Below, piece after piece: positions 27,600 through 64,000 of a stretch of DNA of 64,000 nt. The position numbers and the translations under genes were made by a program. Below the pieces are notes generated by a model that saw only the letters and a program-made list of their open reading frames with translations, searched no databases and was not told the origin of the DNA. Source of the DNA: Dromaius novaehollandiae (taxonomy: Eukaryota; Chordata; Aves; Casuariiformes; Dromaiidae); contig NC_088111.1 of the NCBI RefSeq assembly GCF_036370855.1, positions 17,643,501 to 17,707,500 on the forward strand, in the 5' to 3' direction. Position 1 is the stretch's first letter, and every line of letters begins with the position of its first letter.

Positions 27600-28500
27600 G
27601 TCGCGGGGTCCCTGCGCCCCGCCCCCCCGGGAGCCGCCTCCCCATGCCCCACTTCCCCGCGCCCCACGTCCCGGTGCCCCGTGTCCCGTGACCTGCATCC
27701 CTGCACCCTGCCTTCCCATGTCCCCACATCCCACGTCCTGGTGACCTGTGTCCCCCGTCCTGCGTCCCTGTGCCCCGTGTCCCCGCTCAGGGGCAAGGTC
27801 TCTGGCCAGGGGCACACGCCCAAGCCCGGGAGCCCTCCCCGCCGCTGACCACAGGAGCTGTGCCACATGGGTGACGCGTGGGGCCACGCAGAGCAGGGCC
27901 GGGTGACGCGCTGGCCCATGGTGGCATGGGGGCAAAGCGGCACGTGGCTGGGCTCGGGCTGGGGGCCCTGGAGGAGTGGAGCGCCTGGCACCCCAGCCCC
28001 ATGGCACCCTAGTTCCCACAGTCCCCTAGCACCCCAGTGGCCATGGCACCCCGGTTCCCACAGCGCCCCAACCCCTGCAGCACCCCAGTGCCCATAGCAC
28101 TCCAGTTCCCACGCCCCCCCCCCGGCACCTGCAGCACCCCAGTGCCCAGAGCACCCCCGTTCCCACAGCCTCTGCAGCACCCTGGTGCCCACAGCACCCC
28201 AGTGCCCATAGCACCCCAGCTCCCACGGCCCCTGCAGCACCCTGGTGCCCATAGCACCCCGGTTCCCATGGTCCCCCAGCCGCCCCCAGCACCCCAGTGC
28301 CCATAGCACCCCAGTTCCCATGGCCCCCCAATGCCCACAGCACCGTGGTGCCCATAGCACCCTGGTTCCCATGGCCCCGCATTGCCCATAGCACCCCAGT
28401 GCCCATAGCGTCCTGGTTCCCACAGTCCCCCGGTGCCCACAGCACCCTGGTTCCCACAGCCCCCCAGTCCCCCGGTGCCCACAGCACCCTGGTCCCGGCA
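27600..28500. repeat. Minisatellites between CFAP70 and MSS51
   Basis: From about 27640 to 27790 there is a degenerate repeat of the type GTCCCGTGCCCC. From about 27960 to 28500 there is a clearer tandem array with a 17-18 bp unit like GCACCCCAGTGCCCATA alternating with GCACCCTGGTTCCCATG, around 30 copies. These occupy most of the space between two divergently transcribed genes. Long open frames on both strands here are products of the repeat. Confidence 0.85.
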
Positions 28501-28589
28501 GCCCGACAGCGCGGTGCCCGCTCGGGGTGCCAGCGCAGCCCTGCCCTCGCCGCCGATGCATGTGGCCGCGCGGGCCCGCGCCGCGGGAT

Positions 28590-29056: not shown

Positions 29057-32001
<2,945 letters not shown>

Positions 32002-32109
32002 CTGGCTCTGAACAGCAACCTGCCTGCACCGTCGCAGCCCCGCCAGGGCCCCCCGCCGGCACCCCCTGCCCCCCAGCCTACACCGCACGCTGCCACTGCC
32101 GCCGCGCCG

Positions 32110-32115
32110 AATAAA
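32110..32115 (+). terminator. MSS51: MSS51 poly(A) signal AATAAA
   Basis: Canonical AATAAA hexamer 109 bp after the MSS51 stop codon. It is the only one near the 3' end, giving a very short 3' UTR of roughly 125-130 nt. Confidence 0.85.
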
Positions 32116-32141
32116 CCACCGCCGACCACCGCGTCTTCAGC

Positions 32142-32147
32142 TTTATT
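32142..32147 (-). terminator. Poly(A) signal of the PITPNC1-like gene (distal last exon)
   Basis: TTTATT on the plus strand, AATAAA on the minus strand, about 250 bp after the stop of the distal terminal exon (32394). Expected cleavage near 32120-32130 places the two convergent gene ends on top of each other. Confidence 0.85.
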
Positions 32148-32393
32148 TCCGAAAAGGCCTTTGTTTTCCCAAAGAAAACGGCGGCCGGAGCCGGCCCGGC
32201 ACCCCTCCTGCCGACGGGGCGGCCGGGGGAGCCCGGCAGCGGGACGCGGCGCAGACGGGGGCTGCGGGGCGGCACGGCCCCCTGCGAGGAGCCTGGCGCT
32301 GGGCCGGCTCGCGGGCGCCCGACGTCACGGGAGGCCGGGCCGGAGGCGCGGGACGAGGCCTGGCGGCGGGGCTCTCCCCGGGCGGCGCGGGCC

Positions 32394-37835: not shown

Positions 37836-40440
37836 GGCGGCGGCGAGGCGGCGGGGCCGCGGCTCAGGCGGAGGCTGCGGCGAGGCCGGCGCGGCGGGGC
37901 GGCCGCCCGGGGGGGGGGCGCATCCTGCGGAGACGGGGCGCCGGCCGGGGCAGGCGGTGAGCGCGGGGCGGCGGCGGCGGCGGCGCCCCCGCCCCAAACC
38001 GGCGCCCTCCCGCCGGGGAGCCGCGGCAGCATCCCGCCGCCCAAACCCGGCATCCTCCGCCGCGCACGCCCACGCGCCGCTCCGGCCAGGCCTCCCGCGG
38101 CAGCGGGCAGGATGAGGCCGGCAGCCGGGCGGCCCGGGGCGAGGCTGGGGCAGGGCGAGGTTGGCCGAACGGCCCGTGGGCGCCGCGGCGGCCGCCCGCT
38201 CTGCAGCAGGGTTTCCTTAGCCTCGCGCTGCCTCGCCAAGAGACGCGTTCACGGGCGAGGTCGAGCAGACGGAGCAGGCAGAGCCGGGCGCGTGGGTGAC
38301 CCCGGCGCGGGGCGAGCAGGGCACCCCGAGCCGCCGGGCACACGGGTGCCTTGTGACCTGCTCCGGCCCGCGGGGTGCTCGGGGCACCCTGGGGTGCTCG
38401 GTGGGTCTCGGGGGTGCAGCGTGCCCCTGGGGGGGGGGGGGATGCCTGGTCGGGGGGGGTCTGGTTGGGCTCGGGCTGCCGGGGGCTCCGGTTGCCCCGG
38501 GAGCTCGGGCTGCGGGGGCTCGGGCCGGCGGCGCTGCCGGTGCGGGAGGCAGGGGCGAGCCGGGCCCGGCGCCCCCCGCCGCGGAGCCGCGGGCAGGTGC
38601 CCCCCGGCCGCCGGCAGCCGACGCGCCCCGGCGCCTGCCGCCCTCCCCTCCCGCTGCCCCCGGCGGCGGCACGACGGTCCGCGGCTGCGCCCGCCGCCCT
38701 GCCCGCGCCGCGGCATCCCCGGCGGCCACGGGGCACCGCGGCTCCGGCGGGGGGGGGGGGTCTCCGCCGGCCCCGCCGCGCCCGGCCCCGCCGCGCCCGC
38801 GCTCACTCACCGGGGCCGCGGCGATGCCGCTCGCCGCCGTGCCCGGCCGCCCCGGGCCGTGCGCAGGAGCGCGCCGCCTCCGGGCCCGCCGCCGCCGCCG
38901 CCGCACACCGACCCCTAGGGGGAGGAATCCGCCGCGCACCGGCGGCCCGGCGCGGCTCCGGGGCTGCCCGCACCCATCGCGGCTGCTCCCGGAGGCTCCC
39001 CCGCGCCCGCCCCGACGGCCGCCCGGCCCGGCCCGCACACGCACCCGCTGCGCCGCCGCCCAGCTCGCCCGCGCCGCTGCCCTCGCTCCGTTGCAAGCGA
39101 CTCGCTCGCTAAAAATAGCGGCGCCGGGGCTGGGCAGGGCCGCGCGGCGCGGGCGGTTTTCCTCCCATTTGCTGAAAAAACATTGTGCCTCGCGGGGCTC
39201 CGAGCGGCTCCCGCGTCCGGGCTGTTCCGCACCCCGAGCGCTGCAGCCAGGGGTGCTCGGGGCTCAGCACCCCGCGCCGGCACCCGGCGGGCCCCGCTGC
39301 GCGCTCCCGTCTGCGGAGGGGCAGCAAGGAGCGGCCCCAAACACGGCTTCGCGTTCGCAGCGCGGCGCGACGGGCCCCTCGCCTGGGCGCGCCCCACTCG
39401 CGAGCCGCCGCTCCATCGCCCCCCCTCGGAGCGGGGACTTGCCGGGAAATTTTGGCCCAAAGCCACGGATTCGGCAGCAGAAGGGATTTGCATGGAGGGC
39501 GGAAGGGCCGGAGCCCCGCTGGGCGTGTTTGCTCAGGCGCCGGAGGCCCAGCCCTCGCCCTTGCTCCTGGCTGGGCTCGGCAGGGCCCGAGGGTGCTCAG
39601 CACCCGGTCCCGGTCCCGGCCGGGGGGGGGGTCACACCCGGGGACCCCTGCAGCGCTCGTGTTTGCAAACGGCGTCCAAAGGGGATCCCCGCGGCCAGCG
39701 GCCGAGGCTGGGGGGGGGCCGCGGTGACCGCCCGCCCGTGCCAGGGTGCGGGCGCAGCGGGGTGGCTGCCGGGCGGCAGATCCCCCCGGCCACTGGCCCC
39801 GGCCCCGGGGGATGGCCGGTTCCCGGCCGCGGCAGCAGTTCTGGAGGCCCGGGAGGCCCAGCTGGCACCGCAACCCCGAGCACTGGGCCGGCCCGGTGGC
39901 GGCAGCACCCCGGGCCGGGCGGCGGTTCCCCCCGAGCCGCCCCCTCCCTCCTGGGCAGCAGGTCTGCGTCACCTCGCGGCGCCGGGACCTCGCTCCGCGC
40001 TGCCCGAGGGATGCGCCCGGCCCCCGGCGCCCGCCGAGCCTCCCCGGGGCCGACGCGCCCGCGCTGCGTCGCGGGGCGCCCGGCAGCACCGCGCGGAGGC
40101 CCCGGCTCCCCCCGCCGCGCCGCCCCCGGGAACGCGGCCCCTGGCAGCGGCCCCCGGCGCCGCCCAGCCGGAAGCGGGATCGCGGCCGAGGAAGAAAGCA
40201 GCTGCTCGGCCGGGCTCGGCCCGCCCGTGGCCCCCGCGGCGGCCCCGCGGAGGGCGGCGGCGACCAAACGCAGCGGTGACGGCCCCGGCGCAGCGGTGAC
40301 GGCCCCGCGAGCGGGCGCGCCCCAGGGCGGGGGGGGGGCGCTGCTGCCCGCATCCTCATCCCCCCCCCGACTCGTTCTGCAGGCTCTTGGGCGGCTGCCA
40401 AGCCGAAGGCATCCGCGATTGCCTTTCTTGGTCATGTCCC
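37836..40440. promoter_or_regulatory. CpG-island region upstream of the PITPNC1-like gene
   Basis: Very GC-rich, CpG-dense sequence with no conserved coding signal. A donor-like site (CCCCG|GTGAGTG) on the minus strand near 38815 suggests a non-coding first exon upstream of it. The long open frames on both strands (up to 667 codons) reflect base composition. A single octamer ATTTGCAT lies near 39484. No gene was recognised in this stretch. Confidence 0.5.
39109..39118. promoter_or_regulatory. MEF2-type motif CTAAAAATAG
   Basis: Perfect palindromic match to the MEF2 consensus YTAWWWWTAR, isolated inside a CpG island upstream of a donor-like site that could end a 5' UTR exon of the PITPNC1-like gene. 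It may instead act as an A/T-rich core promoter element. Function is inferred from the motif only. Confidence 0.4.
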
Positions 40441-41362: not shown

Positions 41363-42229
41363 TTACGAAGGCACCGTCAAGAAGACCATCTTGGTGGAGT
41401 ACACCAGGTCTACAAGGTAGGCGAGGAAGTTGAAGATGGTGAGGAAGGTCACCCCCAGGTGCCTGTTCCACCAGCAGTTCACGCCGCAGGAGCTGGGCCG
41501 GCTCCTCTTGTGGAAGCTGTACAGGGGCCAGAGGATGGTGGCCGTGAGGTACATCACCAGGGCCAGGGCGTTGTAGCCCACCAGCATCTTCTCCAGGGGG
41601 CAAGGCATGTAAGCGAGGCACCGGCCGATGGTCATGATGATGATGAGGAGGGTGATGACGAAGCAGATGGCATAGACGGCCACGCACCACTGCAGACCAG
41701 CTTCGGAGCTGACATCATCCAGCAAGGAGAAGATGAGACAGGCCACGTAGGCTTCAAACACTTTCAGGAGCCCCGGCACGGTGGAGAGGAAGCTGCTGAT
41801 GTCGCCCGGCTTGGCGCGCGTAAGCCCCACCTCCAGGGCGTAGGCGAGGAAGCAGAGGCAGGACATGGCCGTGGCCACGGCCTGGCGAACGCACTTGTTG
41901 GAGCGGCAGGGGCTGCTGATGAAGACGGAGGGGTACACCACGGAGGTGGTGAAGATCATCAGCGCGGCCAGCATGGAGAAGGCCGAGGTGAAGTCGTCCC
42001 AGGAGAGGGGCAGCTTGGGGTAGAGCTCCAGCAGCTCCAGCAGCACGATCAGCACGGTCACGGCGAAGCAGAAGCACCAGGTGAACATGCACCACGTCCC
42101 GTAGGTGCCGTCGTAGTCCTCGGTGGAGGCCACCAGGCTGAAGGCGGCGCAGGCCAGGACGATGGCGAAGAGCCGGGCGACGCCCACCCGGGAAGTCAGG
42201 GCGCGCGAGTTCGCCCGCACGACGGCCAT
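41363..42229 (-). CDS. MYADM-like protein (myeloid-associated differentiation marker family)
   Basis: Single-exon gene of 288 codons. MYADM-family proteins have two tandem MARVEL-type four-helix modules and sit in cholesterol-rich plasma-membrane domains, linked to Rac1 targeting and barrier function. About eight hydrophobic segments are visible, for example LFAIVLACAAFSLVAS, FCFAVTVLIVLLELLEL, MLAALMIFTTSVVYPSVF, CLCFLAYALEVGL, YVACLIFSLL, VAVYAICFVITLLIII, ALVMYLTATILWPLYSF and FLTIFNFLAYLVDLVYS. Family blocks are GTWCMFTWCFCFAV, PLSWDDFTSAF, TRAKPGDISSFLSTVPGLLK and QWCVAVYAICF. The intronless coding region is typical of the family. It lies between the PITPNC1-like and SEPTIN12 genes, all on the minus strand. 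It is closer to MYADM than to MYADML2 in wording, but orthology to either is unsure. Confidence 0.9.
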   Translation of the reverse strand: MAVVRANSRALTSRVGVARLFAIVLACAAFSLVASTEDYDGTYGTWCMFTWCFCFAVTVLIVLLELLELYPKLPLSWDDFTSAFSMLAALMIFTTSVVYPSVFISSPCRSNKCVRQAVATAMSCLCFLAYALEVGLTRAKPGDISSFLSTVPGLLKVFEAYVACLIFSLLDDVSSEAGLQWCVAVYAICFVITLLIIIMTIGRCLAYMPCPLEKMLVGYNALALVMYLTATILWPLYSFHKRSRPSSCGVNCWWNRHLGVTFLTIFNFLAYLVDLVYSTKMVFLTVPS

Positions 42230-43439: not shown

Positions 43440-46400
43440 TCAGAGGTTGCTCTCGTCCTCGTCCTTGCCCAGCAGCCCGTTGACGGGGCCCAGCGCCTGG
43501 CGGGTGCCCTCGTTCAGCCGCCGCACGCGGTAGCTCTCGTAATGCACGTTGTGGGTGATGTCCTTGAGATCCTGCAGGTGGGACCTGCCCGGGTGGCAGC
43601 CAGAGGGAAGGGGATGGAGGAGGCGGTCACGCACGGCCAGTGCCGCGGCACGGCTGCCCCGGCGTCCCCACCAGCCTGCCCTGCTCCCGCGGCACGGTGA
43701 TGCGGGAGGCCACGTGCCCCCACGCCGTGGGGTGCCCAGCGCCCCGAGCTCCCGCCACCGTCCCCGCGCGGGCAGGGCCGCCTCTCACCGGATGAGCAGG
43801 TCCCGCAGCATGGGGAACTCGCAGTGCACCGGGTTCTCCACTGCAAGACAAGACCGAGAGCGCTCTGCTGCCGCGCGGGCCGGGAGCCCCTCCGGGCGAC
43901 AGCTGCCCCGAGCAGGGCCACCCCGGCCTGGGCACCCGGTGCCACCATAGGTGCCCACGAGGTGCCCGCTAGCGGGGCCCAAGTGGAAAAGGGCTGGCAG
44001 TGCAAGCAGCTCCTCCTACCTTCGATGATGCCCCACTTGGTCTTGCGGCCCAGCACCCGCTTGCCGTTCACCTGGTGCTCCTGGTCCGCCCCCACCACGG
44101 CGAACGGGATCTTCTCCTGCCAGTGCAGAGGAGGGTCACCCGGGGGTGCTGCCAGCTCCACCAGCCCCAATCTCCCCCCCCCAGCCATCTTCCCACCACT
44201 CACCCGAATCCTGTCGTTCAGGGACCTGTCATCCGGGTCCTCGTCGAAGTCCTCCTGCGGGTACACGCTGATGGCGTGGGCCTTCAGGTCCCTCTGGATC
44301 TGCAGGACATGGGGGCTTGAGATGGCCACGGACCAAGGGTGGCCGGGTGGCGGGAGACAGAGCGCCCTGCCCACGGGGCCGGGGCCCGGCGGGTGCTCGC
44401 GGGGCAGCTGGGACCCCGTGGGAGCTGCCCTCACCCGTTGCTTGAACTCAGCCCGCTCCTCCAGGGTGAGCGTGTCGGCCTTGGCGATCACGGGCACCAC
44501 GTTGACGATCTTGCTGAGCCGCCGCATGAACTCCAGGTCGAGGGGCCGCAGCCTGCCAGGGAGGCCCGTCGGTGCCGGGCGCGGGGCGCCGCTGCAGCCC
44601 CCGCCACCGCGGAGCCCCCGCCGCGCGCCGAAACCCGAGGCCCCCCATGCCCGAGCCACGCTGCCGCCGCTCGAGCCCACCAGACCTGCCCAGGGTGAGG
44701 ACGAGGAGCTGGGCGCGCGGCCGGGCTGCAGCGGGGTGCCGGCGGGGCACCCACGGGTGCCTCTGCAGCCAACACTCACCAGTGTCCGGTGGGGGGGACG
44801 AAGTACACGCAGCCGTGCACCCTGGTGTCCGGGATCTTCCTCTTGCGGGTGATGAGGATCTCCTCGCGCAGGTACCGCTCGTACTGCTCGTTGATGTACT
44901 TGATGATGGGGTCCCAGCTGGCGGGGGGCAGAGTGGGGGCGGTGAGGAGCCTGGGGATGTCTGGAGCAGCACCCGGCAGCCGGTGTCCCCCCCCCGAAAC
45001 GCAGCCGTGCAATGAGCCAACCTGCCCGACCCCCTGGGCTGCGCGCCTGGCGCTGGGGGACGGCAGGACGGGGCGATCCCCGGGACGGACACCCTCAGTG
45101 CGGACCCCGAGGACCCCGCTCCCCGCATGACGGCTGGGCGCCTCCCTGGGTGCCAATGCTGGCCCCAGCGCCCGGTCCCAGCTGCGTCCCGAGGACCAAC
45201 CTACCAGTTCTCGTTGTTGATCTGATCACCGAATCCCGGCGTGTCCGTCACCGTCAGCTTCATCTTCACGCCCTTCTCCTCGATGACTGGCAGGGCAGAG
45301 GGGCACAGCGTCAGTGGCCCCGGCAGCAGGAGCAGCGGCGATGCCACCTGTCCCCAGGGTGTGGGACAGCGGCGGGGGGGTGGCAGGGCCCTACCGTGGG
45401 TGACGGACTGCAGCTGCACCGTCTTGGGGATGCGCTCCTCACGGCCGGGCTGCGTGGCTCTGCGGCTCACCTTGGACTTGAAGAGGGTGTTGACCATGGT
45501 GGACTTGCCCAGGCCGCTCTGCCCTGCGGGGAGGCCGCGGGCACGGTGAGGGAGGGCCGCCCGTCCGCCAGTGAGGCTCAACCCCCCCCGGCCGGTGGCT
45601 CCGCTCGCCCCCTCCGCCCCTGCGCTGAGCCGAAACGTCCAACTCGTGCCGTGACGAACTCCCGCGGCGGAGGGCAGCAGATGGCGGGATGCGCCGGGGC
45701 AGCAGCGCCGGCACTGTGGGAGCTCCCCCGCGGCTCGCCCGTCCCGCGGGAGCCAGACGGCCGCCGCGTCCCGCCGCCTCCCCTCCCACGGCTCCGGGCT
45801 CCCAGCCAGCTCCTGGGAAGCGGCTCCTGTGCTGCCGCGTGCCGGTGCTGCCGGGCCGGGGGCGAGCGCTCACCTACGACCATGATGTTGAACTCGAAGC
45901 CCGTCTTCATGGTCTTGATTCTCATCTGGTCGAGCACGGCCTCGATGCCCACGTAGCCGAAGAGCTCGCGGCCCCCCTGCTCGGGCTCAGCGGCGGGGGG
46001 CGGCCCCTCGGGCGCTGCCGCCGGCGGCTCCATGCCGGGCTCCAGGCTGCTCCCTGCGCGGCAGCACGGCGCAGGGTGAGACCGCGCCGCCTCGCCCGCC
46101 GCGGCGCCCACTCACCCCGCCGGAGCACCCCGTGCCGGGCAGGGCTCCCGCGCGCCTCGCCCCGCTCCCGGCGCCGTTTCCCCAGCAGCAGCCAGCCCGG
46201 CCTGAAGCCCGCGGGCAAGCAGACGCGGCGCATTCCTCGCCGCCGGCCGCCCTCGGCCCAGCAACGGGGCCTGGCGCTGCCAGCCCGGCGCTCCCGCCCA
46301 GGGCGGCCACCGGCACCGTCCCCGGCCCCTCCGCACGGATCTGCCCGGCCCCGGCCCCACGCCGAGCCCGACCTCCGAGGCGCATCCCCGGCATCCGCCC

Positions 46401-49400
46401 GGGCGCTGCCGCTCCTGCCTCCTGCGCCAGGGCCGGGGCTGCAGCAGCCGCCTGGGCCAGCTCGCGCCTGCAAAGTGGCGCTGGGGGATGCCACCATGCC
46501 GGCCCCACGGCGGGCGCTGCCACGGGTGCCCGGCCACGGCAGCGCGCCCACAGCATCCCGCGTGGAGGCTCCCGCGAGGGGCCCCGAGCCGCCCGGCAGA
46601 GCCCCGCGGCCGCACGGAGGGGAGGCCAGCTCCCTCGTCCTCCTTTGTCTGCCGGCTCCGGCAGCCTCCGGAGCCCTCCTCCTCCTCCTCCTCCTCCCCG
46701 GCACAGCCATTGTTCGGTCCTACCTCGGCGATGCGGTGCCGGCGCCGGGCGCTAGCGCGGTGCGGTGCCCACGGGTGCCATGCGCGGCGCGCCGAGCCCG
46801 CCCGGTGTCCCCGGGCCTCGGCTGCGGGCGGCGCGGGCTGCCGGCGCCCGGCGGCTCGCAGCGCGGAGAAGCAGTCCCCTCCCCTCCGCCAGCTCCCCCG
46901 CCGCGATCAAACGGGGGCTGCGAGCCCGGCGGCTCTCGCACATGACTAGAATGGGAATAACGCTCCCCTCCCCTCTCCTCCGCTCGCCGCCTCTCCTCCC
47001 CTTCCCTCCCGCCGCGGCATCCCCCGAGCGTGCCCGGGCCCCGCGCGACACTCCCCTGGATGCGCGGGCAAGCGGGAGCGTGGCCTTGGTCGCCTTCCCG
47101 GCCACGCGCCCGGCGGAGTCCCTGGGTGCAGAGCCGGGCGACGCCACGGCTGCCCCGGAGCTGCCGCCCCCCGGGGCATCGCCCCGCCGGCTCCCACAGA
47201 GCATCGGCTCCCGCGGAGCATCGCCGCGGCGGCGCAGACGGCACCGGCCCGGGGAGAGGGCAGGGCGGAGGTGCCGGCGGCGCTGGGCGTCGTGCCGCCT
47301 GCCCGTGGGGGCCGCCCGCCTCTCGGCCCCGCGCTGCCCTCCGCCCAGGGGCCGCGGCACGGCCGGGGGGGCGGCGGAGCCCGGCAGCCCCCGCACGGCG
47401 CACCGAGCCCCTCACTACCCCTCCGCGTGCCCAGGCGCGATGGGGCCCTGTGGCCAGACCTGTTCCAGGACTAATTGCCGGTGTCTCATTTTCCAGGCGG
47501 GGACAGGCAATCCCGGCCGTGGGCTCCCACAGCGGCTTAATTACGGATGCAGGGTTAATCGGCGTGCGCTGCCCGGGGACGCCTCTAATAAGCTTCGGGG
47601 GCGGCCTGCGGGCGCTGGGAAGGAGGACGAGGCTGGACGCGAGCCCTCCGGCCGGGCCACGCTCACCACATCACTGCAATGACCCCATTTCCCACGCTCT
47701 GCCTGGTGCCTCGGCGGCCCCCGAGACGCCGGCCCGGCACAGTGCGCCTGGCCCAGCCATCAACCGGCTTGCGGGAGCCGGCGGCTGCGTCGCGGTGGGT
47801 TTTGGCGCTGGCGGGCTGGGTTTGCACGGGGGCGGCCGGGGCCGGCCCTACCTGCCCGGCCGGACACGACCCGGGAGCACCTCTCCCGGCACTACGCGCG
47901 TCCCCAGGGCAGAGCGCTGCCGAACGCCGGACACGGAGCCGGCCGGCCTGCGAGGCGGGTGCAGGCAGCGCGGGGCTGCGCGGGGAGCTGGGGGCCGCCG
48001 CGAGGGCGCCCGGCCTGCTGGCTCCCGCTGCCGCGCTGCAGAAGCAGAAGTGAGACCGCGGGGCCGGGCCAGGCGCCTGCGCGGCAGCAGCAGCAACCCC
48101 ACCGCAGCGCCGCGGCCCTGCCCACCGGCTCCCGTCAAGGGGGCTGGGGTCGAGGTGGGGGTCAGGGTATAGGGGTCAGGGTGGGGGTCAGGGTGTAGGG
48201 GTCGGGGTAGGTCCCAGCTGGGCAGCGAGGCGTCGGGGCGCTCGCCCTGCCCGGCCGCCCAGCCCCGCAGCACCGTGCACCCCGCGCCGCCCATCCCGCC
48301 CCGGCTCCTACCTCCGGCACCGCGGGCACGGCCAGCCCCGGCCCAGGCTGCTGCTGCGGAGAGCCGGCCACCCTCCGGCCACCGGGGCCAAATGGCTCCC
48401 GGGGTGCAAGGCAGGGAGGGAAGCTGCGGCCCGCGGCTCCTCCTCCACCCCTCCTCCTCCTCCTCCTCCTCCACCCCTCCTCCTCCTCCTCCTCCTCCTC
48501 CTCCTCCTCCTCGCCTCCCGGGCCCTGCGTGGGCGACCGGGGCTCGGCGTGGAAGCGAAAGGCAGCCCGCTGCCTCCGCGCCCGGCACTCGCGCTTCCTC
48601 GAAAGTGGAGCGGGCCCCGGCCCACCGGCCCGGCCGGCAGAGGAACCGCCGCGTCCCCACCTCTTCCTGGCCCCGGGGCAGGCCGCGGCACCTTGCACCC
48701 CGCTCCGCTGGGCGACGCCGGGGCTGCTGGCACACGCGGGGCACGCGCGGCTCCGGCAAAGGGTGCCAGGGCCAAGGAGCCCTGCTGCCCCTGGGCTGCC
48801 GCAGGAAGGGAGGCGCCGATCCAAGGAAAAGAGGGATGAAAAGGGCAGAAAGCGGGGTCCTACCGTGCCGGGGTGCAGGGCTGCACGGCATCTCCGACAA
48901 GGCTGGTGCAGGGGCCTCGGTGCCGCGGGGCTCCCGGGGCGGCGGCGGCCCCCCGAGAAAGGCGGGCTGCGAGCTCACTTGCACCGTCTGCGGCTGAGAC
49001 ACCAGCTTGAAGGGGGCGGCGCGGGGCGCCGGGGCGGCCTCGTCGTGCCGGGGCGGCCGCGGGGGCCAGCGGGCCGGGCCGGGGCCGGCGGCGAGGCGGA
49101 GCGGCGCGTGGGGCGGCACCGGGGCGCTCGGCTCCTCGGCGATGTGCAGGGCAGGTGGCGGCAGCGGGCCGGGCCGCTCCGCCGGGGCGCGGGGGCCACC
49201 GGGGCACGAGGCCTGCGTCAGGCCGGGGCCGGCGGGCGCCGGGGCGGCGGGGAGGCTCCGCTGGAAGGAGGCGACGCGGCCGAGGCCGGCGGTGCCGTTG
49301 GGCCGGACGCTGCCGTCGAGGGAGCGGCTGCTGCCGCGGCGGGCCGGGGGACCGGGGCTGTGGGGCGGCAAGCGGGGCGGCGAGTGGGGTGCCTCGGCCC

Positions 49401-51014
49401 CATCCTCCGCCTCGAACGACTTCTGCAGCGCTGCGGGGAGAGAGAGCGGCGTGAGAGTGGCCTCCCCGCGCCACGGGCGCCCCCGGCCCGCGCCCCCCCC
49501 ACCACTGCGCGGCCTCAGCACCAAAGGGCTGCTTGTTCGCCGCCGGCCGCTGGGAAACCGGATCCGGGGCCGGCGGCAGCCCAGGGCTCGGGTCCCCCCG
49601 GCGCATTGTTGCGCGGCGCTTATCGCGGGGCCGGGCTGGCGGGGGCCGCGCTCCCCCGTGCAGCACACTGACCCCTTTATTCCCCGCCGCGGCGGGATGG
49701 GAGCCGGCCTCAGGCAGCCCGCGTAACCGGATCCCCTGCCCGGATCCGCTCCCCTCGCCTCCCGGCACGGCAGGGCTCGGCTCTGCCACACGGGCACGAT
49801 CCACCTGTGCTCCCCGGCCCTGGAGTGGTGAGAAAGCTTGAAAACACAGATGCAGCTGATGCCCTGTGCCAGCCCGCAACAGCTGCTGCCAAGGATTATT
49901 GCCCCATTTTGCTTCTTAAGTGTTAACTCTGAAGGCTAACAATGGCGAGGTAGGCCAGCACTATCACAACACATGCAGCAGCAACAGTGTCTACATAGGA
50001 GTCTCCTCTGCCCCAATGCCCAGGAGGGCTTTTCACCTCCTCCAGCAGCACGACAGTGGGATGCCCCATGGCAGATGGAGTGAAAAGTGCCCTCCGTCAC
50101 CTTCCCTGGGGACAGGCTCCCTCCAGGCCAGCCCTTCCCCAGGGAAAAGCTCCCAGCAGCTCTCACTGGCAGCCTCGTGCGGCCCCTCTGCTCGTGGGTG
50201 GAAATCAGCCAAGCGGTGCGGGAGCGAGGAGAGGGGAACAGCACGCTGCCGCGGCACGTCGGCCTGGCCGGGACCCCCGTGGACGCCCCCGCGGGGGCAC
50301 CGGGCTGCCAGGGCCGGGGCCGGCGGCGGCGGGAGCGGACGGGTTAAGGCGGCCAGGGTAGGTGCGCGCATTCCTCCGCGGCGGCAGGCAGGAGCCCCAG
50401 CGTCAGGTTACGGCGCCCGCTCCTCCCCACCCTGCCCCTTCCCAAGCCCCTCCGCGACCCGCCGCGGCCTCCGGTGCGGAGCGCGGGACGACCGAGGGCC
50501 GGGACAGGGCCCAGCCACCTCTGCAGCCCCCTCCCCGGCTGCGGCGCCCCCCGGCCCCCTCCCCAGCCCCGCGTCCCTCCCGCGGCCTGGCACCGGCCTG
50601 CGAGGGAAGCACTCCCTGCGTGCAGGGAGCAAACCCCCAGCACCCGGGCCCTGCGGCACCCCTGGGTGCCAGCCTCGCCGCGCGCCCCCGGCTCCCCACG
50701 ATGCCCGCTCATTCCTGGCACGGTGCCCTGGCCAGGGGGAGCCAGGTCCCCCCGGCCCCCAGCCCAAAACCCAGCCCGGGCACCTACCTACGCGCCGCTT
50801 GCACCCGCGGGGGCCAGGGCAGCCTCCCCGCAGGCAGCGTGTTGCGGCGCAGGCACAGAGCACGCACATGCTGCCCAGGGGGGCTGCGGCATGCCCGCAC
50901 GCCCCTCCGGCCTCCCGCGCGGCGACGGGGCGCGCGCACGGGTTGGAGCACGCACGCACGGGCTGGGGCGCGCACACCCACGCCCGCGGGCCAGAGCACG
51001 CACGCACACCCATG

Positions 51015-51063
<49 letters not shown>

Positions 51064-51337
51064 GTTACAGCATGCACACACACATACAGGTTAGAGCATG
51101 CACGCGCACACGGGTCAGAGCAGGCACACGCATGGGTTATTGCATGCACCCCCACACCCCCACGGGTTATTGCATGCACCCCCACGGGTTAGGGCATGCA
51201 CACCCAGGCTGGAGTGTGCACACACACACGCACACACGCACACGCACACGCGCGCGTTGCAGTCCCCGGCGGCCCTGCCTACCCTCGAAGTCGGAGAGGA
51301 TGCCGTCGAGGTGCTCGCTGACGGAGAGCTGCGCCAT
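43440..51337 (-). CDS. SEPTIN12: SEPTIN12, filament-forming septin GTPase, long and short forms
   Basis: Septin of the SEPTIN3/9/12 group, a filament-forming GTPase of the cortex; human SEPTIN12 is a sperm annulus component. Body exons (minus): 45874-46053, 45395-45523, 45205-45286, 44780-44917, 44435-44552, 44204-44299, 44020-44116, 43789-43840, 43440-43584. Seen are the P-loop GQSGLGKST, the G3 motif DTPGFGDQ, the G4 motif AKAD and the septin unique element (GRKTKWGIIEVEN). There is no C-terminal coiled coil, as expected for this group. The short form starts at ATG 46033 (MEPPAAAPEGPPP), 338 aa against 358 in human. A long form adds exons 48864-49430 and 51283-51337, in frame, giving 552 aa. 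SEPTIN12 rather than SEPTIN9 is favoured by GIEAVLDQMRIKTMKTGFEF and KGVKMKLTVTDTPGF. One oddity is Trp at the usual Cys/Ser in TGHxLRPLD, formed across a splice junction. Confidence 0.9.
46700..48330 (-). promoter_or_regulatory. SEPTIN12: Possible alternative first exons/promoters of short SEPTIN12
   Basis: Three donor-like sites on the minus strand (near 46716 GCCGAG|GTAGGACC, 47849 GGGCAG|GTAGGGCC, 48308 GCCGGAG|GTAGGAGCC) sit in CpG-rich sequence upstream of the acceptor at 46054. Any could end a non-coding first exon feeding the internal ATG at 46033. Around 47455-47600 there is an unusual cluster of homeodomain-type AT cores (TAATTG, TTAATTA, GTTAATC, CTAATAAG). This is inference only. 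Confidence 0.3.
48445..48512. repeat. (TCC)n microsatellite
   Basis: Plus-strand CTCCTCCTCC tract with one interruption by CACCCC, about 20 triplets, in the long-isoform intron of SEPTIN12. The sense strand is (GGA)n. Confidence 0.9.
48864..51337 (-). CDS. SEPTIN12: SEPTIN12 long-isoform N-terminal exons (SEPTIN9-like)
   Basis: Exon A (51283-51337) encodes MAQLSVSEHLDGILSDFE. Exon B (48864-49430) continues ALQKSFEAEDGAEAPHSPP and then 170-odd Pro/Ala/Ser-rich residues. This parallels the SEPTIN9 second isoform N-terminus, recalled as MSDPAVNAQLDGIISDFE followed by ALKRSFEVEEVETPNSTPP, including the same exon break after SDFE. Exon B ends CACG|GTAGG and joins the body exon at 46053 in frame to give GSSLEPGMEPP. 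The start is in good Kozak context (GGCATGGCG) in a CpG-rich region. Human SEPTIN12, as I know it, has no such extension. Confidence 0.8.
50935..51256. repeat. CA-rich compound repeat with GGGTTA motifs beside septin exon A
   Basis: A (CA)n core at 51021-51061 is flanked by tandem variants of a 20-30 bp unit combining ACACACAC, GGGTTAGAGCA or GGGTTATTGCA, and TGCATGCAC. The array ends about 25 bp from the splice donor of the long-isoform first exon. Alternating purine-pyrimidine content makes it a candidate Z-DNA former. Confidence 0.9.
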
Positions 51338-51639
51338 GCCGGGGGCGCCGCCCGGGGGCCCCGCGGGCCCCGCCGCATGGGAGCCGCCCCGCCGCGCCGC
51401 GCCGGGCCGGGCCGGGCCGGGCCGCAGCCGCTGCGCAGCCCCGCGCTGGGACGGCGCGGCTGCCCCGGCCGCTGCGGGCAGAGCGGCGAAGGAGGAGGAG
51501 AAAAGAGAGGCCGGGGAGGAGGGGAGGGGGCGGGGGCACCGGGCCCGCTCCGACCGCCGAGGGGAAGGGGAGGCGCGGCCGGGCTCCCCCCGCCCCGCCG
51601 CGGGCTTCGCCGGCCCCAGCACTGCCGCCCCCGTCCCAT

Positions 51640-52090
51640 GGGCTCCGCCATCCCCAATGCCACCACCTCCGTGCAATGGGCACTGCCATCCCCTGTGCCA
51701 CCACCTCCGTGCAATGGGCACTGCCATCCCCAATGCCACCACCTCTGTGCAATGGGCACTGCCATCCCCAGTGCCACCATCCCCATCCCACTGGCACTGC
51801 CATCCCCAATGCCACCGTCCCCATCCCACGGGCACTGCCATCCCCAATGCCACCATCTCCATGCAATGGGCTCTGCCATCCCCAGTGCCACCATCCCCAT
51901 GCCACGGGCTCTGCCAGCCCATTACAGGCTCTGCCAGCCCATCACTGCTGTCCCCATCCCGTGGGCTCTGCTGTCCCCAGTGCCCCCATCCCCTTGCCCC
52001 TGGCTCTGCTGTCCCCATCACTGCCATCCCCATCCCACAGGCCGTGCTGGCCCCATCACTGCTGTCCCTGTGCCACGGGCCCTGCCGGCC
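51640..52090. repeat. About 44-bp minisatellite upstream of the septin promoter
   Basis: Around ten imperfect copies with the theme CACTGCCATCCCCAATGCCA / CCACCTCTGTGCAATGGG, decaying toward the right end into CCCCATCACTGCTGTCC-like units. Confidence 0.9.
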
Positions 52091-54345
52091 CCGGGATGCT
52101 GCAGCCCCTCGCCTCCGCAGCGGCTGGGGGAGACCTGTGGGTGCTGCAGGGGAAGGGGCCGCCCAGCCTCCCTGTCCGTGCCCCAAAGGTGGGCCACGAG
52201 GGCCGGAGCCGGCAAGCTCAGCGCCGCGGGCAGGGGCGTCTGCTCAGCCCTGCACCAGCGCCCAGCACCGTGCGTGGTGCCCCGGCGCAGGCAGAGCCAG
52301 GACTCGCCGGGCTGCACTGCCGCGCTCAGGGGGTCCCGGGGGGGCCAGGGAGCTCCTGCCTGGCAGAAGAGGGGAGAAACGCGCCGGTGCAGGCAGGGCC
52401 ACCCGTCATCACCTCCTCGCAGGGCGGCCACCGGGGCGCTGGCATCGCGCCGCTGCAGAGCCCGCTCCCCCGCGGCAGCCCCGCGCGGCCTGCCGGCGCC
52501 CGGGCCGGGCGTGAAGGGTTAACCGGGCTGCCGGCGCGGATTTGGGCGGATGGGGAAGGAGCTGGAAATCCCTTCCCCAAACAGGCGATCCCCCGCCGAG
52601 GCGAGCGCGCTCCGCCGCCCGGCCGCCCCGCCGAAAGTAAACAGCCGCCGGCGCGGCGCATTCCTGGGCTGGGCCCGGGCCGGGGGGGGCAGCCCGGCCG
52701 CGGCCGCCCCCGCTGCCCGCCCCCGCGGCTCGGAGCCCCGGCGAGCGCCGTGCCGCGTCCGGACCCGGGGCGGAGAGCAGGCCCCCGTCGCCGCCCGCTC
52801 CGCCGGCAACATCTGCTGGGCAGATGTGAGCCGAGGCCCCCCCCCCGCACGGCGCTGCGCGGACCCCGGCTCCCGGGGCGGCCCCCAGGTCCCGTCGCTC
52901 GGGGACCGCGAGCTGCTGGCCCAGCTCCCCTCGTCCGCCCCGCGACGGGCGCCAGCGCTGCCCGGCACCCGGCGGTCCCGCAGCAAGGGCCAGAGCAGCC
53001 CTACGAGGGAGGGGGACGGGCCTCCCGTCGGGCTCCCGGGGGCTCAACCCCAGGCGCCAAAGCCCAGCGCAGCTCGGCTCCTGCAAACCGCTGCCCAACG
53101 CCCCGAGGTTGCATCCTGCCCCTCGTCGCTGCTCAGCGCCCGGGGGGGCCAGACCTGCACCCCGGGGGGGACGGGGCGGCCCCGAGGTGCCCCCGGCCGC
53201 GCGCAGAGGGCAGCGGGGCCGGGCAGCCCCGCGGGCAGGGCGAGGCGGAGGCGCGGGGACCCGTGCGGCCGCAGCAGCTATTTCGGCTAATGACGCTCGC
53301 TGCCACGGCGCCTCCCGCTCCGCCCTCCAAAGGCAGCTCCCCGCGGGGCCGCTCGCCGCCTCCGAGCGCTTCGGCACCCGCTGCCCCTCGTCCCCCGGCC
53401 GCAGAGGCCGGCGCGGGCTTCCCGGCGTGCTGGACCCCGCGGGGGCAGCTTGCACCCCAGCGAGCGGAGCCGAAGGGTTAAGCTGAGCCGCCCCGAGATC
53501 CAGGAGCGAGCGCCGTGATGCCGGCGCCCCGGCTGGCGTGTCGGACACGGGCACGCTGCTCCGTGCTGGCGATCCCGGCCGGCCGAGCGTGCCCGCCGGG
53601 GGATGCTCCGGAGCTCCCGTGGTGCCAGGGACCGCCCCGAGCCGGCACCGCTGCCGGGGCTTCTCCCAGCGGGGGGGCAGCAGGGACTGCAAATCACGGC
53701 CTGGATCCGGCCTCGCCGGGGGCTGAGTCCCAGGGGAGCAGTCGAGCCCCCAGGCAGCCCGGTGCCCCGGGGCTGCTGGCCCCAAACGCCGCCTGCCCTG
53801 CCGCTGCGGCCCCCGCCCCGCACCCTCGCAGCCGGACGCCGGGCCCAGCCGGAGCTGCGCCGGGCACGGGAGAGGCGGCCCGGCCCCGGCGCTCGCGGCA
53901 GCGCGCTGTGTATTCAGCAGTCGGGATGATTTACGGCGCTGCCCGCGCCAGCTGAGCGGAGCCAGGCGCCGGGCTCGGCCTGCCGAGTGCCCGACCCAAA
54001 AAAGGCAGAGAGCGGCGGCGGGCGCGGGGGGAGAGCCGGCGGCGGCGGCCCGCCCCTCCTGGGCCCACGGGCCCGGCTCGGTCCCCTCTGCCGCCTGCGT
54101 CCGACCGGGCTCGGGCCCCTCTCCGCCTGCAACGAACAGAAACGGGGACCGAGGCAGCGGAGCCTGCGGCTCTCTCCCGGCCGCCCCGGAGGAGGACGTC
54201 GGTGGGGACGGGTCCCGGCAAGTGGCATCCACGCGAGGCACCTTTCCCTGCCGGTGCCATCGAGGGGCTCGTGCCCCGGCTGGGTGCGGGGCTGCAGGGA
54301 CCCCGCCGCTCGCCCCGGCCCTGGCCCCCTGCGCGGCGCCGGCGC
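52091..54345. other. GC-rich intergenic DNA without a recognised gene
   Basis: CpG-rich sequence with long but non-conserved open frames on both strands (up to 716 codons) that look compositional. No splice-consistent conserved peptide, tRNA or known repeat was recognised. It may hold distal promoter sequence of the septin long isoform. Confidence 0.6.
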
Positions 54346-54450
54346 GGAGGAGCTCTGCAGCTGCCCGGAGGAGCTCTGCAGCTGCCCGGAGGAGCTCTGC
54401 AGCTGCCCGGAGGAGCTCTGCAGCTGCCCGGAGGAGCTCTGCAGCTGCCC
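54346..54450. repeat. Perfect 21-bp tandem repeat, five copies
   Basis: Five identical copies of GGAGGAGCTCTGCAGCTGCC plus one C. Each unit contains the 6-bp palindromes GAGCTC, CTGCAG and CAGCTG. Because 21 is divisible by three, all frames stay open across it. Confidence 0.95.
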
Positions 54451-59338: not shown

Positions 59339-62300
59339 TTACTTCACTTCCAGGATGGAGGGGTTTGTCTCCATGATGGCCACGATGATCCTATCGATGT
59401 AATCCTGCAGGCGGAAGTTGATCTCCTCTTGCTTTTGAATTGCTTCCATGAGCTGCAAGCAGGAGAGAAGGGCAGTAAGTGGCCACGACTAGCACACAAA
59501 GACACATGGGACTGAAGAGATTTCCCTCTTCTTCATTTTAGCTTGGATTGTTCCTCATCAGGTACAACAGCACCTCAGGGAGCGACTGGCAGGACTGCAT
59601 TGAGTCTCGTGAGCTCTTTAACACCCAGACTAACTCCATGCTTCTGCAGGAATCTCTTGGCTCTGGCTAGTCTCCCCATGATGGAGGCTCCTATATCCCA
59701 AGCTTTCCAAAGCCAATGCTCCAGGGGCCACACCATGCATTTGGGGGCTCAGACGCGAAAGCCAGAGGCCTGCCCTGGGCTGGGGACACAGGCACAGCAG
59801 GCTGAGCGCAACTCCCAGACTCGCACTGTTAGGAGAGCATGTTATGGTACCTCTGAAGCTCACCCCAGCCTTTCCCTCCCCTTGAGGGGCCTCTGGCCCA
59901 ACAGCACGAGGACATGCCCTCAGCTACTGGCCCAGCTCCTTAACTCTCCTGTCCTTCCTCAAGTTCTCGGCCAGATGGGAGCCTGGAGAAAGTAGGGCAC
60001 ATCCCATCTCCCTCTGGCCCCCAAAATATCTGTGTGCGTTTTCCCAACACATCTCATGATCCTAAAGATTTAACTCTGATCCTTATGCTCTCACACCAGT
60101 ATCTGGGATACAGCTATCGAAGCAGGGAGAGCACGTGCCAGAGGAGGAGGCAGGAACCAATATCCCTGGCACAGATCGCAACTAAACATGTGCGCACACA
60201 CACGTGCACCATCCTCTGCGAACCATCCCAGGAAGAGGAACACTGTCACAGGGCAGGCAAAGGGCAATGACACACGGCCCTCCAATGAGAGCACTGCCAG
60301 CAAACTGGAAGGGCACTGCTTCCTCCACTCCCACAAACGGGGACTGTCCTGAAAACTCTTGAAGAAGTTGCAGGAATATTTCTTTGCTTGTGATAGCTTT
60401 CAAGGGACTTTTGGGAGTGAGCAGTACTACAGACAGGGCTCCTCCCAGGCCCTCTGTACACTGAGGGGAGACTAAACACACCAGGCACCCCAGATGCAGA
60501 TTGAAGCAAGCAATTCTCTTGCAGCAAGTACCTCGTCTCTGGAGACGGAGCTGATCTCTGCAGCCAAGGACTCTGAGAAGGAGGCTGAGAAGAGGTTCTT
60601 GGCTCCCTGGATGCTCAAGTTAATGATCTGCCCATTCAGTTCATCATTCTGCTCCTTCAGGTTCCTGTTATCCTGTTCACAACAGACATTTGTCAGATGC
60701 TGCCAAAGCATGTGGCGCCCCTGGAGCAGATCGCTCAAGCCTGACTGCATGGCTGGGGAAGACAGAGGCTCTTGTTCCATGCAAGCAGCTAACAGAGCAG
60801 CAGGAATAGCTGGAATACAGTCCAACTTGGCAGAGCCTCGAGAATCTCTACAGACACGGGATGTCCTGGAGAAATCCAGAGGACACCAAGATCTGAAGGG
60901 GCTCTAGAGACGTGACATCCTTCAGAGGAAGAAAGCCACCTCTCCTGTCCCAGGACAGCAGCCCAAGAGCCATGCACAGCCAGCTGCAGAAATAAGACTC
61001 CTGCACAGCAGCCTTACACGGCCTGGTCTGCTTCTGAAGGCTGCAGAAGGCATGGCCAACCCACGAGCAGCCTCCATGCCAGAAGCCCTTAGTAGCCATG
61101 ACTAGTGCAGAACTTGTGCCAGGTACCGTCCTGCTCTGCTCGTCCTCCCCAGCGCAAAGCCTCAGCAGTATGAGCCATCCCCCTCACGTGCCGGCAGCTG
61201 GGAAGACCGAAGGGAGCACACACGCTTGCCCTGCTTCCCATATTCCCAGCGCTTGCTGTGATACTGCTGGGACAGGCACTGGGCTGTCAAATGCAGTGGC
61301 AGCACTTGGGGAGGCTGAACAACACACAGGGGCGACAGTCCTAGGTCCGTCAGGGAATCTGCATCCCATTTTGCAAGTCAAGCAGCTGACACATGTCCCT
61401 CCCTGCCCAGCCCCAGATACCTGCTTGAGCTGCTTGATCTCCTGCTCCAGCTCCGTCTCCCGCGTCCTGCTGTTGTACTCCTGGAGCCCCATGCTGCTGC
61501 TCCTGCCCCTTCGCTGCTCAGCTTCCAGTTTGAAGAGCTGCAAGTGCTCGAGCTGCTTCCTGAGGTCCTCGATGAGCTGAAGCACAAAGGAAGAGGACAA
61601 CTGTGAGCACCACACCTCCTGCAAGTCCAACCGCTCACACTGGTCACTGCTGCTGCAACAAGTTGTTATTGCTGCGGCAGGATTAACAGACCGGTTCTGG
61701 GAGGCACATGGCTTCTCTTCCCCAGCAAACAGGAGCAGGGGAGCTACTTAAAAATGTGAAAGCAGCCCCAGGCCCTGGAGGGGCTCTGTCGGAGCACCAC
61801 AGACGCTGGCTCCAAGTCAGCGGCAGGAGGCAGAGGCCCTCCTAGCAACGCGGGCATTTGCTCTGGCAGCTCCCACAGCTCTGGTCTCCCTCTCGCCACA
61901 GCGGGAAGCCTTGGCCGGGGAAGAAGTGCCATGAATGCCCGTCACAACTGAGCGCTCTCAGCCTCAAAGATGACTCTGATTTCCCTTTTGAGGCCAAAAC
62001 TTCCTTTCCTACAGCAATGGCAAGCGCTGTTTGAGCCTCTAGCTGGAATTAGCAACCACACAGGCCCCTGAAGGGGCATCTGCGCCTCCCCCCCCCGTAC
62101 ACGGGAGCTGGGAGCGCTGCCAGCACACAAACTCCTGCTGCCGCTAAGCACGGCAAGCTCTCACCCGAGCAGCCTCGCATCCCTGCCCCCGTCCCGCCCA
62201 CCAATGCCTGCCAGTGCCGCACACTATCATCCCCGCGCTTCTGCCACAGCTCCTCTGAAGCAGGAGAGAAGCAGGCCCTGTGGGGAGGAGGCCAGGGAGG

Positions 62301-62704
62301 CACAGCCTGCCTGGGCTCGCGGGTGTGGACGGACACACTCGGCTGAATTTTAACACAGGCAAAAGCGAGAAGTGACAGATGTCACACAGTGAAGGTGCTG
62401 CACACTCTCTCTCTCTGCCCCGGCAGGACCAAATGCTCGAGCTGTACCTATCTCTGGAGAGGCCAGCGAGGCCGGCTCCTCCCAGGCTGGGTGCACAGCA
62501 CCCCTGTTCGGGTGAACCAGCCGGGCAGCTTGTGACAGGCTGAAGGAGCACCTGTATGCTACTCACCTCCTGCGTAGACTCCTTCTCCTTCTGAAACTGG
62601 TGTCTCTCCTGATTCAGCTTGTCCCCCATCTTCCTCTTGTTCTCCTGCTCCTCTGTGAGCTGGACGGTGAGGTCTTCGATCTCATCCAGCAACTTCTGCT
62701 TCTC
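59339..62704 (-). CDS. RAB11FIP3: RAB11FIP3 C-terminal exons, partial
   Basis: RAB11FIP3 (Arfophilin-1) is a class II Rab11 effector that also binds Arf6. It links recycling endosomes to dynein and the cleavage furrow. The last four coding exons are 62567-62704, 61421-61576, 60532-60672 and 59339-59452. All are phase 0 and encode a continuous coiled coil (EKQKLLDEIEDLTVQLTEEQ; LIEDLRKQLEHLQLFKLEAE; the SSSMGLQEYNSRTRETELEQ segment). This is followed by the Rab11-binding domain, SSVSRDELMEAIQKQEEINF then RLQDYIDRIIVAIMETNPSI, ending LEVK and TAA. The YIDRIIVAIMETNPSILEVK end distinguishes FIP3 from FIP4 (ILDHNPSILEIKH). Upstream exons, including the EF hands, lie beyond the right edge; 62705-64000 is intron with nothing else recognised. 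Confidence 0.95.
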
Positions 62705-64000
62705 CTGCAATGACATGAAGCACAACAGTCACAAGGGCCGTCTCCAGCACTGCCAGCACTCTTCCCATTTGCTCAAGGACGCTGCACACGCCAAGCACCG
62801 CGGGGAACGCTCTTCTCGCTGACGTACTGGGATGCTTTGCCTGCTGTGATTTCATTTGCTGTCTGAGGACTTCAGAGCCCGAGTGCTTTGGCAGCAGTAA
62901 GAAGAGCCACACACCAAAGTAGCACCATTAGAGAGTAAGATAGTAAGAGATGATCAAGAACAAATCCAGCAGTGATCCCCACACAGGCAAACACCTGCAC
63001 TTGTGCAGCCTTCTGCGCAGCCCGGTGCTGGTGTGGGACATTGCCTGGGCGGGAAGGGGCCAAGGACCAGTGTGGGGGCTACCCCCCTCAAACACAAACC
63101 TTTCTAAAAGCCAGAAACACCAAAAAGACACCAGACAATGCTGGTGCCCAATGGCCCATGCCATGAAGAGGCCAGAACCAGCTCTGAAGGAGAGCTCCAA
63201 CTCCCCAGCTAGGTGCTGTGTCTGGGGTGCTCTGGTCCACGGAGCGCAGCGCCAATAGCACTATGCGAGCATGAAACGCAACGTTAACAACAAAATCCCC
63301 ATTTCAGACAACAGGCAAGATATCAGTTTAATCAGCAGGGGTTTCTCTTCTCAGCAGGGGAGGAGCAGTAATTGCACCTCTCACTGCTCATTAACCACAT
63401 TAACTGCGGAGAAAAGCAGCACTGCTCTGCAGAGGGACGAAGAACCGAAACAAACTTCACAGGGCTGAACACACCTAGGCAAGAAAAACATCCTCAGACT
63501 CCACACAGCCTCTCAAGCTTGGTGCTGGAACCTGGGGGTTTCCTTTTACTCGTATAGTGCTTTTCACACCCACAGTCTCAACATCCGCTGCTTACGAGGT
63601 CCTGACGATGAGGTTGTGTGGCTGCGCCAGGCGGGAGACTGGGCTGACAAAGGTCTCCTGCAGGCTCAGAAGCCATGAATGGATGAAATACTTGAAGGCC
63701 TTAAGCTGGGCAGGATGGAGATTTGATTTCACTTAAATTTTCATCTTAATTTTGCCAGAAGCCTGAACAGTAATGTGATAACATACCAACTCTGTACCAG
63801 GTGTTATATCTGCTCCCCCTTCCACTCTCTCCAGAAACAATGATCTTGTCCAGCTCTACAGGGACTCTGCTATGTTGGTGAGGGTCCCACTTTGGCCCCA
63901 TTAACAGATGCCTAGTCCTGAATCCCACGTCCAGCGACAAGTGAGAGGATCTTGCAGATACCCCAGTGCTTTGGAGACTCAGCGTGCAAGTCCAGTGACG

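Follow-up and report, generated by a model that had tools for sequence, protein, structure and literature searches.

The closest described system is SEPT9, whose human transcripts have their last 9 exons in common (PMC5364497; this and the other papers are cited for the passages drawn upon here). According to the same source, isoform 2 (SEPT9_i2, from transcript SEPT9_v2) is found in short septin filaments on actin, lowers the number of long septin-actin filaments beneath the nucleus and fails to sustain migration, and the N-terminus specific to this isoform is required for its effects; isoform 5 (SEPT9_i5) is diffuse; and the first exon of SEPT9_v2 serves as a cancer methylation marker. The basic domain of SEPT9, which isoforms 1 to 3 possess, contains the K/R-X-X-D/E motifs held responsible for direct microtubule binding, and it also bundles actin (PMC13174562). 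A long N-terminal extension has been called unique to SEPT9 (PMC11077590), and mammalian SEPTIN12, termed testis-specific, has described isoforms that do not exceed 41.6 kDa (human) and 41.3 kDa (mouse) (PMC11543461). Here a stretch of 64,000 nucleotides from Dromaius novaehollandiae is analysed (termed the window: positions 17643501-17707500 of contig NC_088111.1, here C14, in assembly GCF_036370855.1, which comprises 1.468 Gb in 271 contigs). The window contains a SEPTIN12 gene preceded by two exons that very probably constitute a real alternative 5' end of this gene, homologous by descent to the start of SEPTIN9 isoform 2.

The SEPTIN12 model lies on the minus strand and consists of 11 exons joined across 10 GT-AG introns; its 1,659 nucleotides, stop included, encode 552 residues (60.5 kDa). 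An earlier note on this DNA had proposed that the two upstream exons join the septin body in frame, and they do (Table 1). The first has its ATG in the context GGCATGG, with no further in-frame ATG in the 60 codons upstream, and ends at the donor G/GTAGGC; the second, which is without stops between its acceptor (CCCCGCAG/CG) and its donor (CACG/GTAGGA), joins exon 3 in phase 1 at position 46053, after GCGCAG. The proline/alanine (Pro/Ala)-rich arm encoded by exon 2 is presumably disordered. Within exon 3 an in-frame ATG would yield a possible short form of 338 residues (38.7 kDa), and the body that follows matches the Pfam family PF00735 with an expectation value (E) of 1.4e-111.

The reference for the upstream exons is the SEPTIN9 gene of the same genome, on contig C18; it replaced the human SEPT9 leader and second-exon peptides that had served as first queries. 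The human arm (214 residues) matches one exon there with 68% identity over residues 1-212, and the human leader has one clear match in the 170 kb scanned (score 78, next 25), namely MADPAVNAHLEGIISDFE at C18:7257883, which runs for 18 codons plus 1 base before GTGGGT. The large exon of this SEPTIN9 (C18:7276398-7277057) has 660 nucleotides, is in phase 1 at both ends and starts ALKRSFEVEEV. Thus SEPTIN12 and SEPT9_i2 share (i) an 18-codon, phase-1 leader with LxGIxSDFE, 11 of its 18 residues being identical in the two genes of this genome; (ii) a large second exon of the same phase, starting AL(K/Q)(R/K)SFE; (iii) an internal ATG in exon 3, which in SEPTIN9 is likewise in frame (MTDAPRDAGLKQ) ahead of FGYVGID; (iv) equal lengths of exons 4-10, all seven lengths being identical in the SEPTIN12, SEPTIN9 and SEPTIN3 of this genome (in a search that tolerated deviations of up to 6 bases), with a stop in the last exon that differs in each; and (v) a leader exon lying within GC- and CpG-rich sequence. 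The match to the SEPTIN9 isoform-2 start, which the earlier note had drawn, therefore stands, whether judged by sequence, by the length of the leader or by the phase of the introns. SEPTIN9 is nevertheless another gene on another chromosome, with a large exon of 660 rather than 567 nucleotides that is mostly unalignable and a first intron of 18.5 kb rather than 1.9 kb; that the window gene is SEPTIN9 itself is ruled out, SEPTIN9 being on C18.

How far the resemblance extends was measured by aligning the two N-terminal arms, as the earlier note had recommended. With composition correction, the blastp alignment is confined to residues 1-35 (51% identity; E 8e-10, for this pair); without the correction it adds a gapped alignment of the proline-rich remainder at 27% identity, which is not counted as homology. 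The SEPTIN12 arm (residues 1-239) has 23% proline, 2 lysines and an isoelectric point of 6.2 (8.9 for residues 1-207 alone), whereas the SEPTIN9 arm has 15 lysines and an isoelectric point of 8.8; matches to a looser [KR]xx[DE] pattern number 4 and 19, respectively. The 'long regulatory N-terminus' of the earlier note is consequently too broad a description: only its first 35 residues align confidently with SEPTIN9, whose basic repeats have no counterpart in it.

Several searches bear on whether such exons could arise by chance. The exon-1 peptide scores 51 with the human SEPT9_i2 leader as query, as compared with 24 for the runner-up in the six-frame window and a maximum of 35 across 60 simulated windows; with the own-genome SEPTIN9 leader as query it scores 58 and the runner-up 26. 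Between exon 1 and position 46000 there are 312 AG dinucleotides; in the phase that splicing demands, only the one at 49430 is ALKRSFEVEE-like (score 33, next 9), and among the 9,233 AGs on both strands of the whole window the best other than 49430 scores 20 with the same query, whose 10-residue length was picked after the match was seen. When the 1.47 Gb were searched with a degenerate DNA pattern that encodes L(D/E)GI(I/L)SDFE and includes the donor, two matches emerged, one at SEPTIN12 and one at SEPTIN9, and with its reversed control none; this pattern had been loosened after the SEPTIN9 exon was seen, its stricter first form matching the window alone. The exon-2 frame, moreover, has GC contents of 0.82, 0.71 and 0.93 at its three codon positions, a spread (0.21) reached by none of 271 nearby comparison segments with at most 60 coding bases (maximum 0.13), although these overlap and hence are not independent. 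It is true that GC content is about 73-78% over 46-52 kb (in 2-kb bins) and that this region is full of long spurious frames, so that convergence there, with the exons part of nothing, might be suspected; yet both genome-wide matches lie upstream of septins of one subgroup, a single AG in 9,233 is at issue, and leader length and phase equal those of SEPTIN9, which leaves coincidence with next to no credence. A plus-strand gene as the owner of the exons was also considered, and a Pfam search of one of the three plus frames over positions 1-30000 found nothing.

Other observations weigh against reading the two exons as a functional SEPTIN9-like start. The reading is made from the genomic DNA of one genome; the open 189-codon frame of exon 2 is unremarkable by itself, being equalled in 0.107 of 3,000 simulations; the opening 19 residues of exon 2 score 39, where simulations reach as high as 38, a weak result; and with a 23-residue query from the own SEPTIN9 exon 2 the true site ranks third in the window (25, as against 31 and 29), because similarity fades about 10 residues into that exon. 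Beyond residue 35 the SEPTIN12 arm is Pro/Ala-rich (23% proline, 15.5% alanine) and cannot be aligned reliably, and it has none of the [KR]RxE/D repeats of which the SEPTIN9 arm has 8. The exons might accordingly be genomic relics--homologous to the SEPTIN9 start but unused, SEPTIN12 being made in its short form from exon 3 only--since exon 2 has drifted in composition and a frame is easily kept open in GC-rich DNA. Such decay is unlikely, however, given that no defect is seen in the start codon, frame, phases, donor or acceptors, that the codon-position bias of exon 2 recurs in none of the overlapping segments nearby, and that the leader still agrees with SEPTIN9 at 11 positions. The two exons are most likely a 5' end in use, and presumably are transcribed.

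That the body belongs to the SEPTIN3/9/12 subgroup, and specifically to SEPTIN12 as the earlier note had named it, is supported by sequence comparison. The top nine of the 43 solved sequences listed are named septin-3, -9 or -12 (human proteins). Over 270 G-domain columns, identity is 206/269 with SEPT12, 195/270 with SEPT9 and 193/270 with SEPT3; sites common only to the window gene and one of these septins, the other two agreeing with each other, number 15, 1 and 2, respectively, or 21, 4 and 7 when such agreement is not required (19, 4 and 6 when the SEPTIN9 and SEPTIN3 of this genome are added). A tree under the LG+G4 model pairs the window body with human SEPT12 at support 99/99, and a C20-model tree, built before a few split-codon residues were corrected, does so at 94/97; the order of the SEPTIN12, SEPTIN9 and SEPTIN3 pairs in the former has low support (62/62). 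By tree path the nearest septin within the genome is SEPTIN9 (C18:7.26-7.35 Mb). At 0.28-0.31, the branch of human SEPT12 has four to six times the length of the window gene's (0.05-0.07), so that the mammalian protein looks accelerated. The residue across the exon 6/7 junction (44552) is Trp (TGHWLRPLD), in place of the Ser of solved SEPT9 and SEPT3 and the Cys of SEPT12.

This long human branch, together with the position of ROGDI--which adjoins SEPTIN12 in human but here lies 2.1 Mb from it on the same contig, so that local gene order differs from the human one--could mean that what lies in the window is an additional, third duplicate of SEPTIN9/12 type rather than the one-to-one orthologue of mammalian SEPTIN12, in which case nothing was lost in mammals. 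That is improbable in view of the tree pairing under both models, of the septin matches on C14, all of which fall within the window among the 59 listed genome-wide, and of the location of RAB11FIP3, which adjoins SEPTIN12 here and shares one chromosome arm with it in human (16p13.3).

SEPTIN3, the remaining member of the subgroup, resembles SEPTIN12 in its exon 4-10 lengths and in its C-terminus: the SEPTIN12 of the window ends in DEDESNL (43440-43584) and the SEPTIN3 of this genome in ENHESNL (last exon at C1:51756735), whereas its SEPTIN9 ends in VANEM. ESNL, which in outline conforms to class I PDZ ligands, may be an ancestral tail. Unlike SEPTIN12, SEPTIN3 shows nothing resembling the leader exon across the 20 kb scanned on C1 (about 11 kb of it upstream; best scores 23 and 21), and the exact leader pattern has no match at SEPTIN3 genome-wide, although a diverged leader could lie further upstream.

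On the minus strand the gene order is RAB11FIP3, SEPTIN12, MYADM-like, PITPNC1-like and CFAP70 (Table 1), the neighbours having been spotted by eye in printed frames and then tested. The FIP domain is identical at 38 of 41 positions to the solved RAB11FIP3 chains 4d0m and 2d7c, and at 37 of 37 from LMEA to EVK; Pfam recognises it as RBD-FIP (E 2e-21) and gives 62147-62728 as Rab11-FIP3-like at E 1.1e-6, which is under the family cut-off. Further RAB11FIP3 exons probably lie to the right, outside the window. The sole other match to the MYADM-like gene at E <= 0.01 in the genome is at C18:16653216 (16.65 Mb; 43% identity), the closest other copy of the PITPNC1-like gene is at C18:12816214 (12.82 Mb; 73% over 63 residues), and that of the FIP domain is on C18 at 11.99 Mb (65%). 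The PITPNC1-like gene is possibly a duplicate absent from mammals. CFAP70 is on chromosome 10 in human and would be here either by translocation or as a paralogue. For all four families searched of the five seen (FIP, SEPTIN12, MYADM-like and PITPNC1-like), the closest other copy is on C18; the two contigs therefore look like duplicated segments of the kind left by vertebrate whole-genome duplication. C1, C14 and C18, the contigs of SEPTIN3, SEPTIN12 and SEPTIN9, correspond in these genes to chicken chromosomes 1, 14 and 18, and the genome has compact GC-rich blocks, as is usual in birds.

Table 1. Features of the window (positions count from its first letter; SEPTIN12 exons as in the spliced model)
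Feature	Position	Strand	Description
SEPTIN12 exon 1	51283..51337	-	SEPT9_i2-type leader MAQLSVSEHLDGILSDFE + 1 nucleotide (18 codons + 1 nucleotide = 55 nucleotides)
SEPTIN12 exon 2	48864..49430	-	567 nucleotides, phase 1/1; ALQKSFEAED, then Pro/Ala-rich arm
SEPTIN12 exon 3	45874..46053	-	in-frame ATG (MEPPAAAP), then FGYVGIEAVLDQ, then start of G domain
SEPTIN12 exons 4-11	43440..45523	-	septin G domain and tail, stop included
SEPTIN12 exons 4-7	45523-45395, 45286-45205, 44917-44780, 44552-44435	-	spliced model
SEPTIN12 exons 8-11	44299-44204, 44116-44020, 43840-43789, 43584-43440	-	spliced model
RAB11FIP3 (part), upstream neighbour	59342..62728	-	C-terminal FIP domain at 59342-59452
MYADM-like, downstream neighbour	41363..42229	-	MARVEL domain, single frame, 288 residues, stop included
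PITPNC1-like	about 32000-38000	-	IP_trans, E 2.1e-90
CFAP70	5719-12161 tested; probably to ~25260, by eye	-	E 4e-91 to a solved CFAP70 chain, joined query

GC-rich minisatellite arrays with units of at least 17 bases occur at 27984-28509, 34171-34659, 36613-36998 and 51638-52092, around the PITPNC1-like gene as well as 5' of the first SEPTIN12 exon. An array with a 38-base unit starts about 300 bases upstream of the first SEPTIN12 ATG. At 54345-54450 there are five perfect copies (100% match) of a 21-base unit, within long open frames on both strands. Searches of the whole window with Rfam (gathering threshold) and ARAGORN gave no matches.

With leader length, phases and body plan shared, and with the segments duplicated as a block, the two leaders are most simply explained by common descent, and common descent in turn makes the leader older than the separation of SEPTIN9 from SEPTIN12. 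The long start thus most likely predates the SEPTIN9/SEPTIN12 split, which is what the earlier note had surmised and what the homology of both exons to the isoform-2 start implies. One might argue instead that SEPTIN12 acquired its 5' exons from SEPTIN9 at a later time, through conversion or the copying of exons, inasmuch as clear similarity is confined to residues 1-35 and ancestry cannot be dated directly from one species; but 7 of the 18 leader residues differ and the large exons cannot be aligned over their remainder, so that no recent copying can have occurred, and the window yielded no exon of the SEPTIN9 i1 type. Later copying is on these grounds very improbable. Under common descent, the SEPTIN9/SEPTIN12 ancestor would have had an 18-codon leader exon, a phase-1 splice, one large exon and a body with an ATG in its first exon, and the SEPTIN12 of the window would retain this ancestral plan, with a long product of 552 residues and potentially a short one from exon 3.

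Mammalian SEPTIN12 is like the window gene in its body and unlike it in mass, its largest published isoform falling well short of 60.5 kDa. This points to the long form as the older of the two and to a shortening of the gene in mammals, the case for loss in mammals being built on those published isoform masses. A fuller scenario, which is put forward tentatively and with rather more doubt than confidence, is that SEPTIN12 began as a SEPTIN9-like gene with an i2-type leader; that in the mammalian lineage its 5' exons were moved or removed when the DNA separating RAB11FIP3 from the septin body was rearranged, after which the gene there was truncated, fast-evolving and sperm-restricted; and that sauropsids keep two forms.

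As to function, long SEPTIN12 would occupy the place of SEPTIN9 beside SEPT7 in the septin octamer, and the leader stretch LDGILSDFEAL, encoded across the junction of exons 1 and 2, would have the same action as in SEPT9_i2, the outcome being short septin filaments that are not microtubule-bound; the short SEPTIN12 from exon 3 would resemble SEPT9_i5. We infer this role--an octamer subunit of the SEPT9_i2 kind, off microtubules--from the presence of the i2-type leader, the basic repeats being absent from the SEPTIN12 arm and an i1-type exon not having been found in the window. Three points weigh against parts of it. The basic domain, which in SEPTIN9 also bundles actin, is lacking in SEPTIN12, so that an actin association of the long form is uncertain. 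No partner specific to SEPT9_i2 was found in the work described in PMC5364497, which lends no support to docking by the leader. And LDGILSDF, judged by eye, fails the LD-motif definition (L,V)(D,E)X(L,M)(L,M)XXL (PMC7703752). The leader does resemble a paxillin-type LD motif (LDXLLXXL) in being a short acidic and hydrophobic stretch (LDGILSDFE) that heads a presumably disordered arm, and LDGILSDFEAL would be amphipathic if helical (moment 0.33-0.42); it differs in having Ile and Phe at the fourth and eighth positions of LDGILSDF. The main text of the LD-motif paper (PMC7703752) contains no words beginning 'sept'. Neither a long SEPTIN12 nor a septin LD motif is mentioned in the titles, abstract openings and passages surveyed (PMC1931588, PMC6323724, PMC11238149, PMC10267514 and others), a scope outside which subscription journals and database gene models fall. 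Because no isoform-2-specific partner was found (PMC5364497), a specific LD-type docking role of the SEPTIN12 leader is considered unlikely.

The occurrence of a homologous leader in a sister gene indicates that the SEPT9_i2-type start, rather than being peculiar to SEPT9, is ancient. Comparison of the two genes sorts the residues that have been kept (LxGIxSDFEAL..SFE.E) from those that have not (the basic repeats), and SEPTIN12 offers a second protein in which the role of the SEPT9_i2 leader may be tested. On the same evidence, the restriction of SEPTIN12 to a testis role in mammals looks like a derived condition.

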